NCBI RefSeq assembly: GCF_018476525.1
Contig: NZ_JAHCST010000079.1
Coordinates: forward strand, 1 to 40,143
Direction: 5' to 3'
Length of the DNA: 40,143 nucleotides
Source: Acrocarpospora catenulata
GTDB lineage: Bacteria > Actinomycetota > Actinomycetes > Streptosporangiales > Streptosporangiaceae
Below the pieces are notes generated by a model that saw only the letters and a program-made list of their open reading frames with translations, had not been told where the DNA came from and did not search any database. This document shows, in pieces, positions 14,001-19,695 of the stretch. Position numbers and translations under genes: made by a program. The stretch's first letter is position 1. Each line of letters starts with the position of its first letter.

Positions 14001-14317
14001 TGGACCTGGAGGTGCCGTTCGAGACGGTGATCGCCGACCGGCTGGTCCGGGGGCGGATGGACGCGGTCTTCCGGGAGCGGGACGGGTACGTGGTGGTCGA
14101 CTGGAAGACCGGCGAGCGCCCACGCGGCGGCGAGGCCCGTACGGCCGCCATCCAGCTGGCCGCCTACCGGCTGGCCTGGGCGCAGCTGTCCGGCACTCCG
14201 CTGGAGAAGGTCGGCGCCGCCTTCCACTACGTCCGCGCCAACCAGACGGTACGCCCGGTGGACCTGATGGAGGCCGACGACCTGACCGCCCTGATCTACG
14301 AAATTCCCGAAATGTAG
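11084..14317 (+). CDS. adnB: AdnB subunit of the AdnAB helicase-nuclease
   Basis: A 1077-residue second AdnAB subunit, the lead motor in the characterised mycobacterial enzyme. The UvrD-like motor has Walker A GAGSGKSE (K41), LTFTRKAAGELAERV, DEYQDTS (D265, E266), GDPCQSIYGWRGA, VHASKGLEWPVVVVPGL and RLAYVAVTRA. The C-terminal RecB nuclease carries RGRMDAVFRERDG and VVVDWKTGERP with D1006 and K1008. Unlike AdnA, I see no four-cysteine cluster around the nuclease. The GTG start sits in GTGCTGA at the AdnA stop, behind a GGGGGACAGG ribosome-binding region. The last 22 bases overlap the 3' end of the convergent siderophore decarboxylase, with no terminator between them. Confidence 0.93.
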   Translation: MLSPAELAAKLGVLPPTPEQAAVIEAEREPMVVVAGAGSGKSETMAGRVVWLVANGYARPEQILGLTFTRKAAGELAERVRKRLTGLVAAGLIAEVETEPTVSTYHAYAARLVTDHALREAMEPTMRLVTPAVAWQLASRVVGQYDGPMDQVDLGPASVTAAVLELAGELAEHLRRPGDVRAVGEWLRERQAAVPGRLTQAQLKPVKVQAVREQLLPLVEAYQRVKRHREVIDYGDQMALAARIAAGHPEVGQLERERFSVVLLDEYQDTSHAQLVLLRALFGGGHPVTAVGDPCQSIYGWRGASSGNLTRFPVDFRTPRGEPAPVRQLSVSFRNGERVLDVAARVQAELRREAAEVPVLTPGENRADRGRVVCAFHETAEDEAAWIADGVAAILGRETAPDGLPWGEGERSKSRSSLYGPAGSVQPQDVAILARKRSQFPAIRRALEARDIPIEVVGLGGLLTVPEVADIVATLRVMYDPTSGDALVRLLAGPRWRIGPADLKVLGELARELSQDTVPRQADPLAQVVADLEAERGSLIDALDELPERQEWRARFSEKAQERLPALALELRLLRAHAGQPLPDLIGEVERRLGLDVEVAARGGSPLAARADLDAFQDAAGRFAGDAEDPTLGAFLAYVKAAETEEFGLEGGRVGETNTVKLMTVHASKGLEWPVVVVPGLSQVTTQKGGLAKGSIFPATPVTNSRWTENPRKLPYGLRGDAADLPELAGLDKEALAEFEDDCRERDLREERRLAYVAVTRAHYLLIASGYRWGSSSRALEPSEFLLEIKEHAAVAHWTEGEQDENPLLAEPPEAEWPSVVVKEAIQEGADMVSAAMEGLEEVGEGEVKEWERERMRSWTRDTELLLRERDRRREAGIVELPSRLTVSSLVSLARDPAAFARQIRRPLPRQPAPLARRGTSFHRWLESRWGQQRLLDELELPGAADEVSPADLRLVELQARFEESRWAAKVPVDLEVPFETVIADRLVRGRMDAVFRERDGYVVVDWKTGERPRGGEARTAAIQLAAYRLAWAQLSGTPLEKVGAAFHYVRANQTVRPVDLMEADDLTALIYEIPEM

Positions 14318-15378
14318 TGAAATTCCGGTTTTGGGTGCATTAGGAAATCGTGGTGGGAGATGTTCCAGGCGTACGCCCCTGCCATGGCGAACGCCACGAC
14401 ATCCCCCACCCGCAACGATGTCCTGATATTTCGGGCGAAGACATCCTTGGGGGTGCAGAGTTGGCCGACCAGCGTGACCGTCTCCTCCGGCAGCGTCGAG
14501 GAACCGGCTGAGAAGACCGTGAACGGCTGATTGTGCCCCTTGGTGACTGGTGTCCGCAGATGGTGGGTTCCTCCCGTCAGCACCGCGAACAGCTCCCCGT
14601 GCACCCGCTTCAGATCGAGCACCTTGGTGAGATACCACCCGCAGTAGGCCGTCATCGCCCGCCCCGGCTCGATCCGCAACCGCTCCGGCGTCCCCGCCAG
14701 CCCGGCCCCGTACGCCGCCCAGTCGAACCGGGCCTCCGGCCGCGCGTAGTCCACCGCCATGCCGCCGCCCAGATTGACCTCCGCCGCCCCGACCTCCCGG
14801 GCGAACTCCAGCACCGCCCCCGCCACCTTCAGCAGTTCCTCCGCCGCCAGCCCGCTGGCCAGATGCGCATGGATCCCCCGGAACCGCACCGGCTCCCGTA
14901 CCAGCTCCAGACACTCCGCGACCCCGCCGGGATCCATCCCGAACGGCGTCGCACCCCCACCCATGGCCAGCGCCGCCCCCGCGAGCGGCACCTCCAGGTT
15001 GGCCCGCAGCAGCACGTCCACCGGCTCCCGCCGCCCCGCCAGCAGCCGCCGCAGCTCGCCTGGACTCTCCACATGCATCCGGTACGGCGTCAGCCGCAGA
15101 TCCCCATCGGTCTTCCCCGGCCCCCCGAACGCCAGCCGAGCCCCCGGCAGCACCTCCCGGACATGCGCGAACTCCCCACCCGAGGACACCTCGAACCCGT
15201 CCACGTGCGGCGCGACCGTCCGCAGCAGCCACGGATCGGGATTGGCCTTGACCGCGTAGTAGATCTCCACCCCGGGCAGCGCCCGCCGGATGCCCGCCGC
15301 GTGCGCGTCAAGCCCGGGCAGGTCGTAGACGTAGGCGGGGACGTCCCCCAGCCGCTCGGCGTACCGGCGCAGGTTCAC
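14296..15378 (-). CDS. PLP-dependent decarboxylase of the siderophore operon (fold III, PvsE/SbnH-like)
   Basis: A 360-residue member of the ornithine/diaminopimelate decarboxylase family (alanine-racemase-type barrel plus beta domain). The Schiff-base lysine is K44 in YYAVKANPDPWLL. Other family signatures are the GFEVSSGGEF segment, HAHLASG, EVNLGGGMAVDY, RIEPGRAM and GQLCTPKDVFA. In vibrioferrin, staphyloferrin B and achromobactin operons such enzymes make an amine building block or decarboxylate an intermediate for the NIS synthetases. The GTG start overlaps the preceding synthetase stop by 4 nt (GTGA). It is the last gene of the operon, and its TAG lies inside the convergent adnB 3' end. 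A house-keeping LysA is less likely given the operon and the divergent sequence; the substrate is unknown. Confidence 0.87.
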   Translation of the reverse strand: MNLRRYAERLGDVPAYVYDLPGLDAHAAGIRRALPGVEIYYAVKANPDPWLLRTVAPHVDGFEVSSGGEFAHVREVLPGARLAFGGPGKTDGDLRLTPYRMHVESPGELRRLLAGRREPVDVLLRANLEVPLAGAALAMGGGATPFGMDPGGVAECLELVREPVRFRGIHAHLASGLAAEELLKVAGAVLEFAREVGAAEVNLGGGMAVDYARPEARFDWAAYGAGLAGTPERLRIEPGRAMTAYCGWYLTKVLDLKRVHGELFAVLTGGTHHLRTPVTKGHNQPFTVFSAGSSTLPEETVTLVGQLCTPKDVFARNIRTSLRVGDVVAFAMAGAYAWNISHHDFLMHPKPEFHYISGIS

Positions 15379-16910
15379 AGCGGCCTCGCCAGGGGGTTGG
15401 CCACCGGCACATAGGTGGCGTTCCGGTCGGCGGCCCGCGACCACCGTACGGTCAGGTTGGCCTTGGCCGGCAGCGGCACCCCCGCCAGCAGTTCGGCCAG
15501 CCGGCGCGGACGGCCCCTGGTCTCGGCGTAGGCGGCCAGGACGTCCCCGGCCACCGCCCAGAGCTCGCGGAGCGGGCAGCGGCGCTCCAGGGTGGCCGCG
15601 ATCTCCGCCAGGTGGTTGACGAACAGGCAGTAGACCACCCGGTTCCAGCCGCGCTCGGCGTCGTAGGTCAGCGCGGCGGCCACCTCCCGCCTGACCCCGG
15701 ACAGGTCGTGCCCGACCAGCTTGGTTCCCTCCAGGTCGCGGAAGACCGCCTCCACCGGCCGCCCCTGCGCGTCCAGCCCGACCAGCACGTTCTGCAGGTG
15801 CGCCTCCAGCACCACCCCGTGCCGGAAGTAGGCCTCCAGCACGGGCAGCGCCACCCTTTCCACGTACGCGCGCCACCAGGCCAGCGGATCGGACGGGTTC
15901 AGGTCCCGCACGGCCAAAGCCCCGGCCAGCACCGGCGTCACCCCGGCCCCGATCCGCCCCCATGGGCTGCACCGGACCAGCACGCCAAGTCCTTCCAGCA
16001 GTCTGGTCCCCAGGTCCGCCGAGCGGTAGCCGGGCTCCGGCAGCCACCGGGTGCCGGGGAAGGTCTCGGCCAGGTCGGCGAAGACCGGCGCCAGCCGCCG
16101 GGACAACTCCACCGAGCCGGACAGCTCGTACCAGGCGTTCTTCCGCACGCAGTTGGTGATCCGCACGTCCAGGCTGAACTTGAGGCACTTGTCCAGGTCG
16201 GGTTCGTAGACCGTGCGCACCGAGGAGGTCGGGGTGGCGTACCCGGTGGTCTGGCCGAGGTCGATCAGCCGGCCGTCGCCGAGGGGCAGGTCGAGCAGCT
16301 CGTACTGCCAGGGGTGCACGGGCAGCACCGTGTACCCGTCGGGGGCCGGTCCCAGCCGGTCCAGCGCGCCCGGGTCGCCCTCCTCCACCAGCACGTCGTC
16401 CCGCACCCCGAGCAGCCGCAGCGGGAACCGCGCATACGCCTCCGGCGCGTAACTCAGCCAGTCCCCCTTGGCCGCGCTCCTGGCCTTCGGGGCGGGATGG
16501 AAGGGATGCCCGTGCAGCAGCGACTGCTCCGAGGCCAGCCAGGGGTCGGCGGGGGGAGTCGCCTCCTCCCGGGCCAGCGCCAGCGCCTCCATCACGGCCT
16601 GGCTGCCGGCGACCTGCCCGGCGAACTCCTCGTTGCCGTCCCCGCCCAGCTCCTCGCTGATCAACGCCACCAGGTGCTCGGGGCTGAGCGGCTCCCACGC
16701 CCCGTCGCGCAGCCACTCGCCCTGCCCCAGCCGGAGCGCGATGCCCCCGGACGCCCTGGCCCGGATCAGCACCCCGCCCACCCGCAGCGACACGTGGTCC
16801 GTCAGCTGCCAGACCTGCCCGCGCGGCCCGGCCACCTCGCGGACGCAGCAGCGCAGCAACGCGCCCACCGTGGCCCGCTCGGCTTCCGTGGCCACCAGTA
16901 ACCGGTCCAT
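15375..16910 (-). CDS. NIS siderophore synthetase, IucA/IucC family (second)
   Basis: A 511-residue NRPS-independent siderophore synthetase, which activates a carboxylic acid (usually citrate) as an acyl-adenylate and condenses it with an amine or alcohol. The ATP/carboxylate motif HGHPFHPAPKAR lies at residues 133-144. VLPVHPWQYE, a PTSSVRTVYEP motif, KCLKFSLDVRITNCVRKNAW and VVLEAHLQN follow, and the C-terminal FhuF-like part is present. Length and motif order are those of a complete enzyme. The ATG at 16910 directly abuts the TGA of the previous synthetase (TGAATG), and its stop overlaps the decarboxylase start. It differs strongly from its neighbour synthetase in the ATP motif, so the two probably act on different acyl donors or different steps. 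Confidence 0.9.
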   Translation of the reverse strand: MDRLLVATEAERATVGALLRCCVREVAGPRGQVWQLTDHVSLRVGGVLIRARASGGIALRLGQGEWLRDGAWEPLSPEHLVALISEELGGDGNEEFAGQVAGSQAVMEALALAREEATPPADPWLASEQSLLHGHPFHPAPKARSAAKGDWLSYAPEAYARFPLRLLGVRDDVLVEEGDPGALDRLGPAPDGYTVLPVHPWQYELLDLPLGDGRLIDLGQTTGYATPTSSVRTVYEPDLDKCLKFSLDVRITNCVRKNAWYELSGSVELSRRLAPVFADLAETFPGTRWLPEPGYRSADLGTRLLEGLGVLVRCSPWGRIGAGVTPVLAGALAVRDLNPSDPLAWWRAYVERVALPVLEAYFRHGVVLEAHLQNVLVGLDAQGRPVEAVFRDLEGTKLVGHDLSGVRREVAAALTYDAERGWNRVVYCLFVNHLAEIAATLERRCPLRELWAVAGDVLAAYAETRGRPRRLAELLAGVPLPAKANLTVRWSRAADRNATYVPVANPLARPL

Positions 16911-18458
16911 TCAGGCGCTCCTCTGCGAGACGGTGAGATAGTTCGGGCCGCTGGTGCCGTAGTACTTGTTCACGTCGGCCGCCCCCGTGCGGCTCTTGTC
17001 GACCAGGGTGCCCGCGGTGACCATCGACTTGCCGACCAGCCGGGCCGCGTCCAGCGTCCTGGCCCGCAGCAGCCGGGCCATCGGGTGGTCGCCGAAGGCG
17101 TCCAGGGCGGCGGCCAGGGTCTGCCGTACCCAGCGGGCGTCGCCGAGGGCGGGGACGGCGATCGCGGCGGCGGCCAGGTGCAGGGTGATGGTGACGAACA
17201 GGTCGGCCAGCGCGTGCGGGTCGTCGGTGTAGAGGCGTTGGTCGGCGAAGGCGGGGATGTCGAGGTCGGAGCGGTCGGGGGCGACCAGCAGGCCGTCGTT
17301 GTCCTTGACCAGCAGGCGCAGGCCGCCCTCGCCGAACACCAGGGCCAGGTTCTGCTGGTGGGCCTCCAGCGCGATGCCGTACCGGACGAAGAGCGTGACG
17401 TTCCAGGTGAACAGGATGGTCAGGTAGTCGCGCAGCAGAGCCGCCTGGTCGCCGCCGTAGTGCCGGGCGGCCAGTTCGGCCAGCACCCCGGGGGCGGCCA
17501 GCGCGGCCACCGAGACGATCTCGCCCTCCGGGAGGCGGCGGATCATCCAGGCCAGGTACTCGTGCCCGGCGTGCCCGTAGGTCTGCTCGTCGGCCAGCAG
17601 CACCCGCAGTCCGGGCTCCCGGTCCAGCACCTCGCGGAGCAGCCGTTCGGCCAGCGCGCCGTCCCGCAGGGTGGCCGGTTTGATGGACCGGCGGTTGCGG
17701 GCGCCCAGTGTGCTGGTGGCCAGCGGCAGCTTCAGGTGGGTGCGCGCGTCCACCGCCACCGTGCGCATGGAAAGCGTCGGCCGCACCCGCAGGTACTCCT
17801 CCCGCCCCACGATCCCCCCGGGCAGGCTGGGCACCGCTAGCGGATGCACCGGGAAGAGCACGTGCGAGCGGTCCAGCGACGGCAGCCCGGCCTGGGCGAA
17901 GGTGGGCCAGAAAACCCCGGATCCCGTCACCGTTACCGCGTCCCTGGGCACCGCCGCCCAGCGCAGCTCGAAGTGCGGGGCGAACTCGGGCGCGTACGCC
18001 ACCAACTGCTCGGGGGACAGGCCCAGGCGGCACCTGGCCGTCGGGTAGACCGGGTGGTCCACCCGGGCCGCCAGCACCTCGTACCGGAGCGGGGACGCGC
18101 CGGGGTCGGGGGCGTGCCGGTCGAGCAGGTCCAGCGCGACCAGGGTCTCCCGGCACTCCTGGGCGAAGGCCGCCACCCCCTCGGCGTCCAGCGGGTCGGC
18201 CACCGCGCCCAGCGTGTCCAGCACCTCGGCCAGGGTCAGCTCCTCACCGGGGGCGACCACGAAGTCCTGGAAGAGCCCGGCCAGACCGCCCGGCGTGAGC
18301 CGTACCCGGCGGCCGGACGGCAGCGGAAGCGTCACCCCGCTCCGGTCCCGGGTGAGCCGGGCGGCCAGGCCGCCGTAGTCCTCCCGGAGCAGGGCGTTCA
18401 GCACCCGCGCGGCCAGGTAGCTCTCCCGCTCGTGCAGCGGGGTCACGACAGGAGCCAC
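16911..18458 (-). CDS. NIS siderophore synthetase, IucA/IucC family (first)
   Basis: A 515-residue synthetase of the same family. The signature near the active site reads DHPVYPTARCRLG (residues 134-146) rather than the usual HPxHPxxK form. FPVHPLAVPSLP, RPTLSMRTVAV, THLKLPLATSTLGARNRRSIKP and GIALEAHQQN follow. These residues build the ATP and carboxylate pocket in the family. GTG 18458 is preceded by AAGGAG at 5-nt spacing and overlaps the ATP-grasp gene by 16 nt. GTG 18446 would give a 4-nt GTGA overlap like the other junction, but it has poorer ribosome-binding spacing. Together with the second synthetase it would condense two amide or ester bonds in one siderophore. The product cannot be read from sequence. 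Confidence 0.88.
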   Translation of the reverse strand: MAPVVTPLHERESYLAARVLNALLREDYGGLAARLTRDRSGVTLPLPSGRRVRLTPGGLAGLFQDFVVAPGEELTLAEVLDTLGAVADPLDAEGVAAFAQECRETLVALDLLDRHAPDPGASPLRYEVLAARVDHPVYPTARCRLGLSPEQLVAYAPEFAPHFELRWAAVPRDAVTVTGSGVFWPTFAQAGLPSLDRSHVLFPVHPLAVPSLPGGIVGREEYLRVRPTLSMRTVAVDARTHLKLPLATSTLGARNRRSIKPATLRDGALAERLLREVLDREPGLRVLLADEQTYGHAGHEYLAWMIRRLPEGEIVSVAALAAPGVLAELAARHYGGDQAALLRDYLTILFTWNVTLFVRYGIALEAHQQNLALVFGEGGLRLLVKDNDGLLVAPDRSDLDIPAFADQRLYTDDPHALADLFVTITLHLAAAAIAVPALGDARWVRQTLAAALDAFGDHPMARLLRARTLDAARLVGKSMVTAGTLVDKSRTGAADVNKYYGTSGPNYLTVSQRSA

Positions 18459-19591
18459 GGCTGCTCCTTCCGGAACTTGTCGACGGCGTCGTCCACGGCG
18501 GCCTGATCGGCGGCGATCACCCGGAGCAGGCCCAGGTAGTCGCGGTTGGTGCGGGTGAGCTCGACCCGGTCCCCCACCGCACGGAGGGCATGGTGCCAGA
18601 GGCGCAGGCCGCCCGATTCACCGGCCTGCTCCGGCGGCCCGGCCACGATGACGCCGGACCGGTCGGCCACCAGGCTGACCGCCGCCCCGTGGCCGGTCCC
18701 CGGCGGAGGCACGGGGGCGGGCTCCCCGGCGTGTACCCGGAGGATCCATTCGAAGAGCGGCACACCGAGCAGATCGGCCAGCAGGAAGTCGCAGTTGTCG
18801 CCGATCACCCGGTAGTTGACCTCGATGATCCGCGGCCCGGCGTCGGTCAGCACGTACTCGGTGTGGCAGGCCCCCAGCCCCACCCCCAGCGCCGCCAGCG
18901 CGGCCAGCACGTGCTCGCGCCCGGGTAACTCGGGCGCCCAGTCCAGCCGCTCCTCCACGAAGTACGGCAACGGCCCGAGCGTGGTCCGGTACCCGCCGAG
19001 CACCCGCAGGTCACGGCCGTCGCCCAGGGTCTCCAGGGTGTACAGCGGACCCTCCAGGTACTCCTCGGCCACCAGGGTCTGGCCGGGGCGGCGGTCCCGG
19101 ACGGCGGCCACGGCTCTCTGGAACTCCCCGGGGTCCCTGGCCAGGATCACGTCCTCGCTGGCCACGCCCTCCCGGGGTTTGACCACCACCGGGCCAGGCC
19201 ACGGGGGGAGCGGGTCGCCGGGCGCCAGCCGTACCGAGCGCACGGTCTCCACCCCGGCGGCGGCCAGGGCGCGCCGGGTGAGGGCCTTGTTCTTGGTGCT
19301 CAGGCAGGCCCGCCAGTCCTTGCCGGGCAGGCCGAAGTAGGCGGCGGCCAGCGCGGTCTCGGCCTGCGCGTGGTCGGAGTTGCTGAAGATCACATCCGGC
19401 GGGTGGTGCCGGGCGACCGTGTCGACCAGCGCGCGGACGTCGAGCACGTCGGTCCGGAGGCAGTCCTGCCCCGGGTAGTCTTCGGGGCGGTCGGTCAGGA
19501 TGGTGACGTCCCACCCCAGAGCCGCCGCGGCGGGCAGGAAGCCGGACGTCACCGAATCGGTGGACTTGAGCGTGACAAGGTACAGCCGCAA
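18443..19591 (-). CDS. ATP-grasp ligase, first gene of the NIS siderophore operon (PvsA-like)
   Basis: A 382-residue ATP-grasp protein. The N-terminal Rossmann-like part begins MRLYLVTLKS. The grasp core includes VVVKPREGVASEDV, the adenine-binding LVAEEYLEGPLYTLETL region and the metal-binding IIEVNYRVIGDN loop. ATP-grasp ligases form amide bonds through an acyl phosphate. In vibrioferrin biosynthesis PvsA is an ATP-grasp enzyme working beside two IucA/IucC synthetases and a decarboxylase, exactly the set found here. The start is TTG 19591, preceded by GGGGGAA at 3-nt spacing. No ATG is available in the right place: the frame upstream runs into the iron box. It is the first gene of an iron-boxed operon. 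The carboxylate and amine partners are unknown. Confidence 0.82.
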   Translation of the reverse strand: MRLYLVTLKSTDSVTSGFLPAAAALGWDVTILTDRPEDYPGQDCLRTDVLDVRALVDTVARHHPPDVIFSNSDHAQAETALAAAYFGLPGKDWRACLSTKNKALTRRALAAAGVETVRSVRLAPGDPLPPWPGPVVVKPREGVASEDVILARDPGEFQRAVAAVRDRRPGQTLVAEEYLEGPLYTLETLGDGRDLRVLGGYRTTLGPLPYFVEERLDWAPELPGREHVLAALAALGVGLGACHTEYVLTDAGPRIIEVNYRVIGDNCDFLLADLLGVPLFEWILRVHAGEPAPVPPPGTGHGAAVSLVADRSGVIVAGPPEQAGESGGLRLWHHALRAVGDRVELTRTNRDYLGLLRVIAADQAAVDDAVDKFRKEQPWLLS

Positions 19592-19601
19592 GAGTTCCCC
19601 C

Positions 19602-19620
19602 GAAGGTAAGGCTTACCTAA
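19602..19620 (-). promoter_or_regulatory. IdeR/DmdR-type iron box upstream of the NIS siderophore operon
   Basis: On the minus strand the 19 bases read TTAGGTAAGCCTTACCTTC. This matches 14 of 19 positions of the actinobacterial iron box TTAGGTTAGGCTAACCTAA and keeps the TTAGGT half and the ACCT core. It ends 10 nt before the TTG start of the ATP-grasp gene. Fe2+-bound IdeR/DmdR would be expected to block transcription, so the operon should be induced by iron limitation. The box also faces the divergent nudC gene. Confidence 0.88.
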
Positions 19621-19695
19621 GTAACAGTAGTCGATCACACCTCTGCACCGGGGGAGTTGCCGTTCTTCCCGCAGAGATACGGAAATATAAAGCCT

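Follow-up and report, generated by a model that had tools for sequence, protein, structure and literature searches.

The window analysed here, a stretch of 40,143 nucleotides (nt) from contig NZ_JAHCST010000079.1 of the actinomycete Acrocarpospora catenulata, carries at positions 14296-19591 four intact minus-strand genes that probably constitute an iron-repressed biosynthetic operon for a mono-citrate siderophore of the vibrioferrin type, in an exporter-less form usual in the Streptosporangiales. The genes are referred to below as A, B, D, and E, after their counterparts in the pvsABCDE operon of Vibrio, gene C (pvsC) being the exporter gene that the window lacks. The product would most likely be a siderophore composed of citrate, ethanolamine, an amino acid, and 2-oxoglutarate, with its export and uptake encoded elsewhere. 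This reading is built on the computed gene content, the iron box, the family placement of the enzymes, their conserved residues, and the absence of pvsC.

The operon and its enzyme families

Gene A (18443..19591) encodes a PvsA-type ATP-grasp ligase of 382 amino acids (aa; P0004), begins at a TTG codon with GGGGGAA upstream, and overlaps by 16 nt gene B (16911..18458), which specifies a PvsB-type nonribosomal peptide synthetase (NRPS)-independent siderophore (NIS) synthetase of the IucA/IucC family (515 aa; P0003). Gene B abuts gene D (15375..16910), which codes for a second IucA/IucC-family NIS synthetase, of the PvsD/AcsD type (511 aa; P0002), and the GTG start of gene E (14296..15378), which codes for a fold-III pyridoxal phosphate decarboxylase of the PvsE/SbnH/AcsE type (360 aa; P0001), lies over the stop of D in a 4-nt overlap. 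Above the Pfam cut-offs, P0004 matches ATP-grasp_3 and ATP-grasp_4, P0002 and P0003 each match IucA_IucC and FhuF, and P0001 matches both Orn/DAP/Arg decarboxylase domains. The four-gene operon and box outlined in a first-pass annotation of this DNA were found in place in every part by the open reading frame (ORF) list and Pfam, and the absence it had noted of exporter, receptor, and citrate synthase genes stands as well, no gene for export, uptake, or citrate synthesis appearing in the operon among the ORFs and Pfam matches at the locus.

The same annotation had recognized the vibrioferrin enzyme set (PvsA, PvsB, PvsD, and PvsE), an assignment of the predicted enzymes that gene order, pairwise similarity, tree, and active-site residues together support well. 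The order A-B-C-D-E is found in two Vibrio species, Cupriavidus necator H16, Pantoea soli (whose gene A is annotated PvsA), Piscirickettsia, and Rhodococcus oxybenzonivorans (plasmid records), and the window has A-B-D-E. BLASTP identities between the window proteins and those of Vibrio sp. THAF190c, Cupriavidus, Pantoea, and Rhodococcus amount to 35-45% for A, 33-43% for B (over a partial length only for the Pantoea counterpart), 30-43% for D, and 41-51% for E, with R. oxybenzonivorans at 43-51% across the four proteins; E is also 40% identical to Sodalis AcsE. Window B and D are shorter than their Vibrio sp. THAF190c counterparts by 88 and 110 aa, respectively. The best matches in the PDB are the L-amino acid ligase 3vot for A (E 1.1e-14), AcsD 2w02 for D (E 2.7e-63), and 6knh, which we take to be SbnH, for E (E 6e-72). 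A narrower form of this reading, not exclusive of it, is that the operon makes vibrioferrin proper, with alanine as the amino acid; we put its chances a little below even, given that the four biosynthetic enzymes have counterparts ordered as in two Vibrio clusters and that neither tree nor residues hint at other chemistry for B, D, and E, but that A is only 35% identical to Vibrio A.

The synthetases were placed in an NIS tree of 62 rows (quick method, with support from the Shimodaira-Hasegawa-like approximate likelihood ratio test, SH-aLRT, only), in which 13 actinobacterial loci are represented besides the window and Rhodococcus. Window B falls into a clade made up solely of the 20 PvsB-type rows (100% SH-aLRT), whose sister group (99) consists of AcsA and the first-placed synthetases from two staphyloferrin B-like clusters, which by gene order correspond to SbnC. 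SbnC couples 2-oxoglutarate (PMC11308372), and gene B may do the same. Window D is placed within the AcsD/PvsD clade (99% SH-aLRT), which includes one other Streptomyces row, and neither window synthetase groups in this tree with the IucA/IucC (aerobactin), rhizobactin-like, or AsbA/AsbB-like (petrobactin) rows, the labels of which rest on gene context. A grouping with some other NIS clade of different product, the objection foreseen by the first-pass annotation, did not materialize for B, which groups only with PvsB-type rows; for D the check speaks against the SbnE-position rows, from which D stays apart, but is undiscriminating taken alone. Because its clade holds PvsD and AcsD jointly, D by itself cannot tell vibrioferrin from achromobactin, a distinction that B and the ATP-grasp protein do make.

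An achromobactin or staphyloferrin B operon, which the resemblance of D and E to AcsD and AcsE/SbnH and the unsplit PvsD/AcsD clade might bring to mind, is improbable in the extreme, with no third synthetase (AcsC/SbnF position) being present, only two IucA/IucC genes being found in the genome (a 98% complete draft), B lying outside the AcsA/SbnC-position group, and the window possessing an ATP-grasp gene, of which none is annotated in the cluster stretches of Sodalis, Thalassospira, Pseudonocardia, and Methylocystis. On synthetase count, NCBIfam, and tree we set aside staphyloferrin B, rhizoferrin, aerobactin, petrobactin, and achromobactin; the NCBIfam models SbnC, SbnF, and FslA score 24-39 bits on B and D against cut-offs of 700-1000, which is weak evidence, these models being narrow.

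The residues of D carry the assignment further. AcsD joins citrate and L-serine, with R305, E442, R501, and K563 being the residues discussed (PMC3323832); window D and 20/20 PvsD-type rows retain these four residues as well as the H444 position. Directly following R305, a Lys is present in 19 of the 20 and in the two AcsD rows, but in no SbnE-, AsbA-, IucA-, or rhizobactin-position row of the alignment; the residue of window B corresponding to R501 is Leu. As most other type A rows also have the AcsD residues, their presence in D indicates citrate and an amino-bearing acceptor, not serine as such; that D uses citrate and serine is the probable reading. We consider rather unlikely a product of a related mono-citrate type that contains a different amino acid or has diaminopropionate replacing serine, the latter giving an amide-linked core as in staphyloferrin B. 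The diaminopropionate variant draws on E having the presumed SbnH structure 6knh as its closest match. SbnH acts on citryl-diaminopropionate (PMC11308372), and AcsD also takes L-2,3-diaminopropionate (PMC3323832); however, D groups with AcsD/PvsD rather than with the SbnE-position rows, and neither sbnA/sbnB-like nor diaminobutyrate genes are found in the operon (the search for them covered the operon only), whereas both staphyloferrin B-like clusters carry sbnA.

Two other actinobacterial clusters were noted alongside these comparisons. Plasmid pBCI1-2 of Pseudonocardia sp., an actinobacterium from the ant Apterostigma dentigerum, has a staphyloferrin B-like cluster with sbnA, three synthetases, an aldolase-family gene, and a gene annotated as alanine racemase, and Streptomyces sp. 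BHT-5-2 has a D-E pair adjoining an AcsC-like synthetase, without A or B, which is a different, mixed NIS cluster.

The iron box and the surroundings of the operon

A palindromic IdeR/DmdR-type iron box, GAAGGTAAGGCTTACCTAA, occupies positions 19602-19620, beginning 11 nt before gene A's TTG start codon, and has 2 mismatches to TTAGGTWAGSCTWACCTAA, the consensus for boxes of this type. It is the sole match in the window at ≤3 mismatches, and dinucleotide shuffles yielded a match in 0/100 cases; in the whole genome the box pattern occurs at 15 places, as against 1 for the pattern read backwards. At the same threshold a box precedes gene A in 18 of the 18 relative loci that contain the A start (a 19th, L072, ends inside gene A and was left out of the count), and 63 of the 80 best loci of the wider scan described below have one within the 400 nt ahead of A. 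Of the 17 scan loci without a box, 15 carry C, mostly with transport genes upstream of A, the remaining two being L126 (which ends inside A) and L146. The genome also has one match to Fe_dep_repr_C (DtxR/IdeR-type). The box that the first-pass annotation had reported is confirmed by these counts, and with a promoter box and a DtxR-family regulator in the genome the operon can be classed as a putative IdeR/DmdR-regulated siderophore operon.

Other boxes of the genome lie beside the NRPS hydroxamate cluster with FecCD on contig C93, a siderophore-interacting protein (C123), a binding protein and permease (C10), and Suf (C101), ferritin-like (C95), and VIT1 (C114) genes. Some places are not beside iron genes, those on C121, C98, and C169 adjoining genes without a plain iron role.

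The box sits in a 65-nt gap (19592-19656) between A and a divergent NUDIX hydrolase gene, which might respond to iron too; in several relatives this gap holds other inserted genes. Besides the NUDIX gene, Pfam identifies two UvrD-helicase/PDDEXK-nuclease genes flanking the operon. The place of the operon looks old because these neighbours are kept, the NUDIX gene in 17 of the 19 relative stretches and UvrD-like genes in nearly all, a pattern suggestive of vertical inheritance.

Distribution, the missing exporter, and transport

P0003 has a strong match in 20 of 60 genomes (its own included), all 20 being among the 37 genomes of the same family and 0 among the 23 outside it, with a weak match only in 4 further genomes. 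In 14 of the 19 relative loci A-B-D-E lie on one strand, and in two (L063, L064) E is inverted. A scan of genome contigs for relatives of B returned at least 417 stretches, some of which, at E 1e-3, are possibly other NIS enzymes; the best 80 of these, ranked by likeness to the window, are all from actinomycetes, including Streptosporangiaceae, Thermomonosporaceae, Streptomyces, Kitasatospora, Kribbella, Nocardia, and others, and have A beside B in 80/80. The first-pass suggestion that such a siderophore would be notable in an actinobacterium has to be given up on this count, and a Streptomyces cluster has already been published: the avs cluster of Streptomyces avermitilis, for a "vibrioferrin-like polyhydroxycarboxylate siderophore" (PMC9394381). 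In addition, S. tunisialbus has an antiSMASH region with 18% similarity to vibrioferrin (PMC7385001), and Glutamicibacter sp. ZY1, also an actinobacterium, is reported to produce an alpha-hydroxycarboxylate siderophore by plate colour, the available part of the source giving no gene link (PMC12093950). A literature search, with subscription papers mostly outside it, found neither an isolated actinobacterial vibrioferrin nor a report of exporter loss. Judging by this distribution, a siderophore type that is known from marine proteobacteria occurs widely, and with iron boxes, among soil actinomycetes.

The arrangement varies at its E end. E is inverted, convergent to D, and hence outside the operon in L063, L064, and L093 (the last two being one genome), and it was not found in the examined stretch of L065, L072/L126, L074, L089, L100, L101, L124, and L153, although sequence continues past D; L074 has neither D nor E beside A and B. 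In loci without E or D the missing steps would need genes elsewhere.

The exporter was counted in 97 actinobacterial loci with B and D, comprising the 19 relatives less L074, two plasmid records, and 77 of the 80; they include four genomes twice (L060/L092, L064/L093, L072/L126, and L073/L145), all without C, and the sample leans to the window's kin. Gene C lies between B and D in 16 of the 97 (223-271 bits), and in the other 81 (77 of 93 distinct) the B-D gap is ≤432 nt and holds no C match above 100 bits. In the clade formed by Streptosporangiaceae and Thermomonosporaceae, C is missing from each of the 71 rows (67 distinct, counting the window). Mapped onto the FastTree phylogeny of B, the presence of C requires 8 changes, of which 6 are forced by well-supported branches; the count is approximate, the tree having flagged long branches. 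These changes are likely to be losses, because the window's clade is without C throughout and the four proteobacterial rows and Rhodococcus have it. That the exporter is missing, as the first-pass annotation held, is real: B and D abut, and one PvsC query of the genome found no ortholog. The exporter-less variant is conserved among kin.

It is very unlikely that the operon is a decaying remnant on its way out after loss of the exporter. Such decay might be read from the absence of exporter and linked FecCD and binding-protein genes, which fuller cassettes in Streptomyces, Kitasatospora, Kribbella, and Rhodococcus possess, and from relatives in which E is not near D or, in one, D and E are both lacking; the four ORFs are nevertheless intact, neither the box nor any of the catalytic residues tested has been lost, and the form without exporter extends through the whole of the window's clade. 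A more speculative proposal, to which we give a low probability, is that the Streptosporangiales module has been cut loose from transport, the exporter having been lost in the ancestor of the group and several more times in Streptomyces, with biosynthesis and iron control kept; the product may then be a cell-associated or intracellular citrate-type iron carrier, or share the transport of a second siderophore (the C93 NRPS hydroxamate cluster). Retention of the biosynthetic genes without a dedicated exporter throughout one large actinomycete group provides a defined genome set for asking how the siderophore leaves the cell. The complete Rhodococcus cassette (L026:1-3393), for its part, adjoins a Tn3-family transposase and merB on its plasmid, which hints at mobility.

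The missing citrate synthase gene had been counted in the first-pass annotation among the signs that product and transport must be served from elsewhere or differ; no citrate synthase is annotated in the stretches around two Vibrio clusters either (the gene table being incomplete), and its absence is therefore no argument for a different product. With four SbnG/AcsB-type references, tblastn against the fetched loci of the window genome, including the surroundings of its HpcH/HpaI-family genes, gave no match at 1e-3. A TonB-type receptor is not expected in an organism without an outer membrane.

Candidates for uptake and iron release were sought elsewhere in the genome. Contig C93 (51600-94970) holds a large iron-boxed NRPS cluster with a Lys/Orn monooxygenase, FecCD permeases, an ATP-binding cassette exporter-type gene, and a binding protein, which constitutes a second, hydroxamate-type siderophore system. 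The C93 binding protein (84.5-85.6 kb) is the best match in the window genome for a binding protein encoded in a Streptomyces cassette (33%, E 8e-14), and orthologs of it (≥66%) are present in 9 of the 20 operon-bearing genomes (own included) versus 0 of 40 without the operon, related genomes not being independent. Its place at the border of the NRPS hydroxamate cluster of that contig makes a role in the latter system more likely, and it was rejected as the operon's uptake protein. Three further binding proteins were also set aside as uptake candidates: that of C10 has no close match in the family, that of C2 has close matches in three same-genus genomes only, and that of C130 is found at ≥46% in 29 of 36 family relatives, with or without the operon. 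The sole perfect box of the genome (C172:19787-19805), at which a major facilitator superfamily (MFS) gene ends, lies 13 nt before the gene for a 242-aa protein with a CC...CxxC ending and no Pfam family. This protein is 28-32% identical to three FhuF-type 2Fe-2S proteins (Pfam FhuF_C) adjoining the operon in Streptomyces, homologs of which occur in 20 of the 80 scan loci and in L028, all Streptomyces or Kitasatospora; as a lead, it may provide the iron-release step.

Predicted pathway and comparison with known systems

The predicted pathway would begin with D activating citrate and coupling L-serine as an ester to give O-citryl-serine, the serine part of which E would decarboxylate to ethanolamine; A would then attach an amino acid to the free amine by way of an acyl phosphate (alanine, if the product is vibrioferrin itself), and B would cap the nitrogen of that amino acid with 2-oxoglutarate, which would then cyclise. 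IdeR/DmdR with iron is expected to occupy the box immediately upstream of A, and unlinked proteins would carry out export and uptake. Two reviews propose that PvsE converts serine to ethanolamine and that PvsA forms the citrate ester (PMC5577590, PMC6836290), one of them calling the functions of the vibrioferrin enzymes untested (PMC5577590); our comparisons appear to fit the order D, E, A, B better. The four-enzyme set should be useful for settling the assembly order of vibrioferrin.

Several observations weigh against the vibrioferrin-type reading. The operon has no transport gene, and a single Streptomyces PvsC query found no ortholog in the window genome, returning five partial MFS matches (E 7e-5 to 6.5e-4). 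The set is not always together, two of the 19 relatives lacking E in the stretch examined (L065, L072) and one lacking D and E (L074). The top NCBIfam models for E are exosortase-associated and diaminopimelate decarboxylases, and that for A is PRK02186; these models name other functions, and all score below cut-off. The NIS tree does not split PvsD from AcsD, most other type A rows share the AcsD residues, and the reviews assign the Pvs steps otherwise (PMC5577590, PMC6836290).

Among known systems, the achromobactin-type clusters of Sodalis and Thalassospira share with the window an AcsD-type synthetase and, in Sodalis, an AcsE-type decarboxylase, but have three synthetases, a diaminobutyrate transaminase gene, and no annotated ATP-grasp. 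The staphyloferrin B-like clusters of Pseudonocardia and Methylocystis resemble it in a fold-III PLP decarboxylase-type gene and a citrate-based logic, and differ in sbnA, in three synthetases, and in the lack of an annotated ATP-grasp in the stretches shown. The avs cluster of S. avermitilis is the actinobacterial cluster named vibrioferrin-like in print, known here by its description, which in the part available describes no product (PMC9394381). The fuller cassettes of Rhodococcus oxybenzonivorans (plasmid pRB29) and Streptomyces cyaneochromogenes have counterparts of A, B, D, and E, but unlike the window they also hold C, a siderophore-binding protein, and FecCD-type permeases, to which Rhodococcus adds an aldolase/citrate lyase-family gene. 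The pvsABCDE operon of Vibrio has the same four biosynthetic enzymes in the same order, with B and D falling into the clades of the Vibrio proteins, whereas the window lacks the MFS exporter PvsC between B and D as well as linked uptake genes, and carries an IdeR-type box where the vibrioferrin operon of Vibrio is under Fur control. We file the window operon as an exporter-less variant, and not as a pvsABCDE operon.

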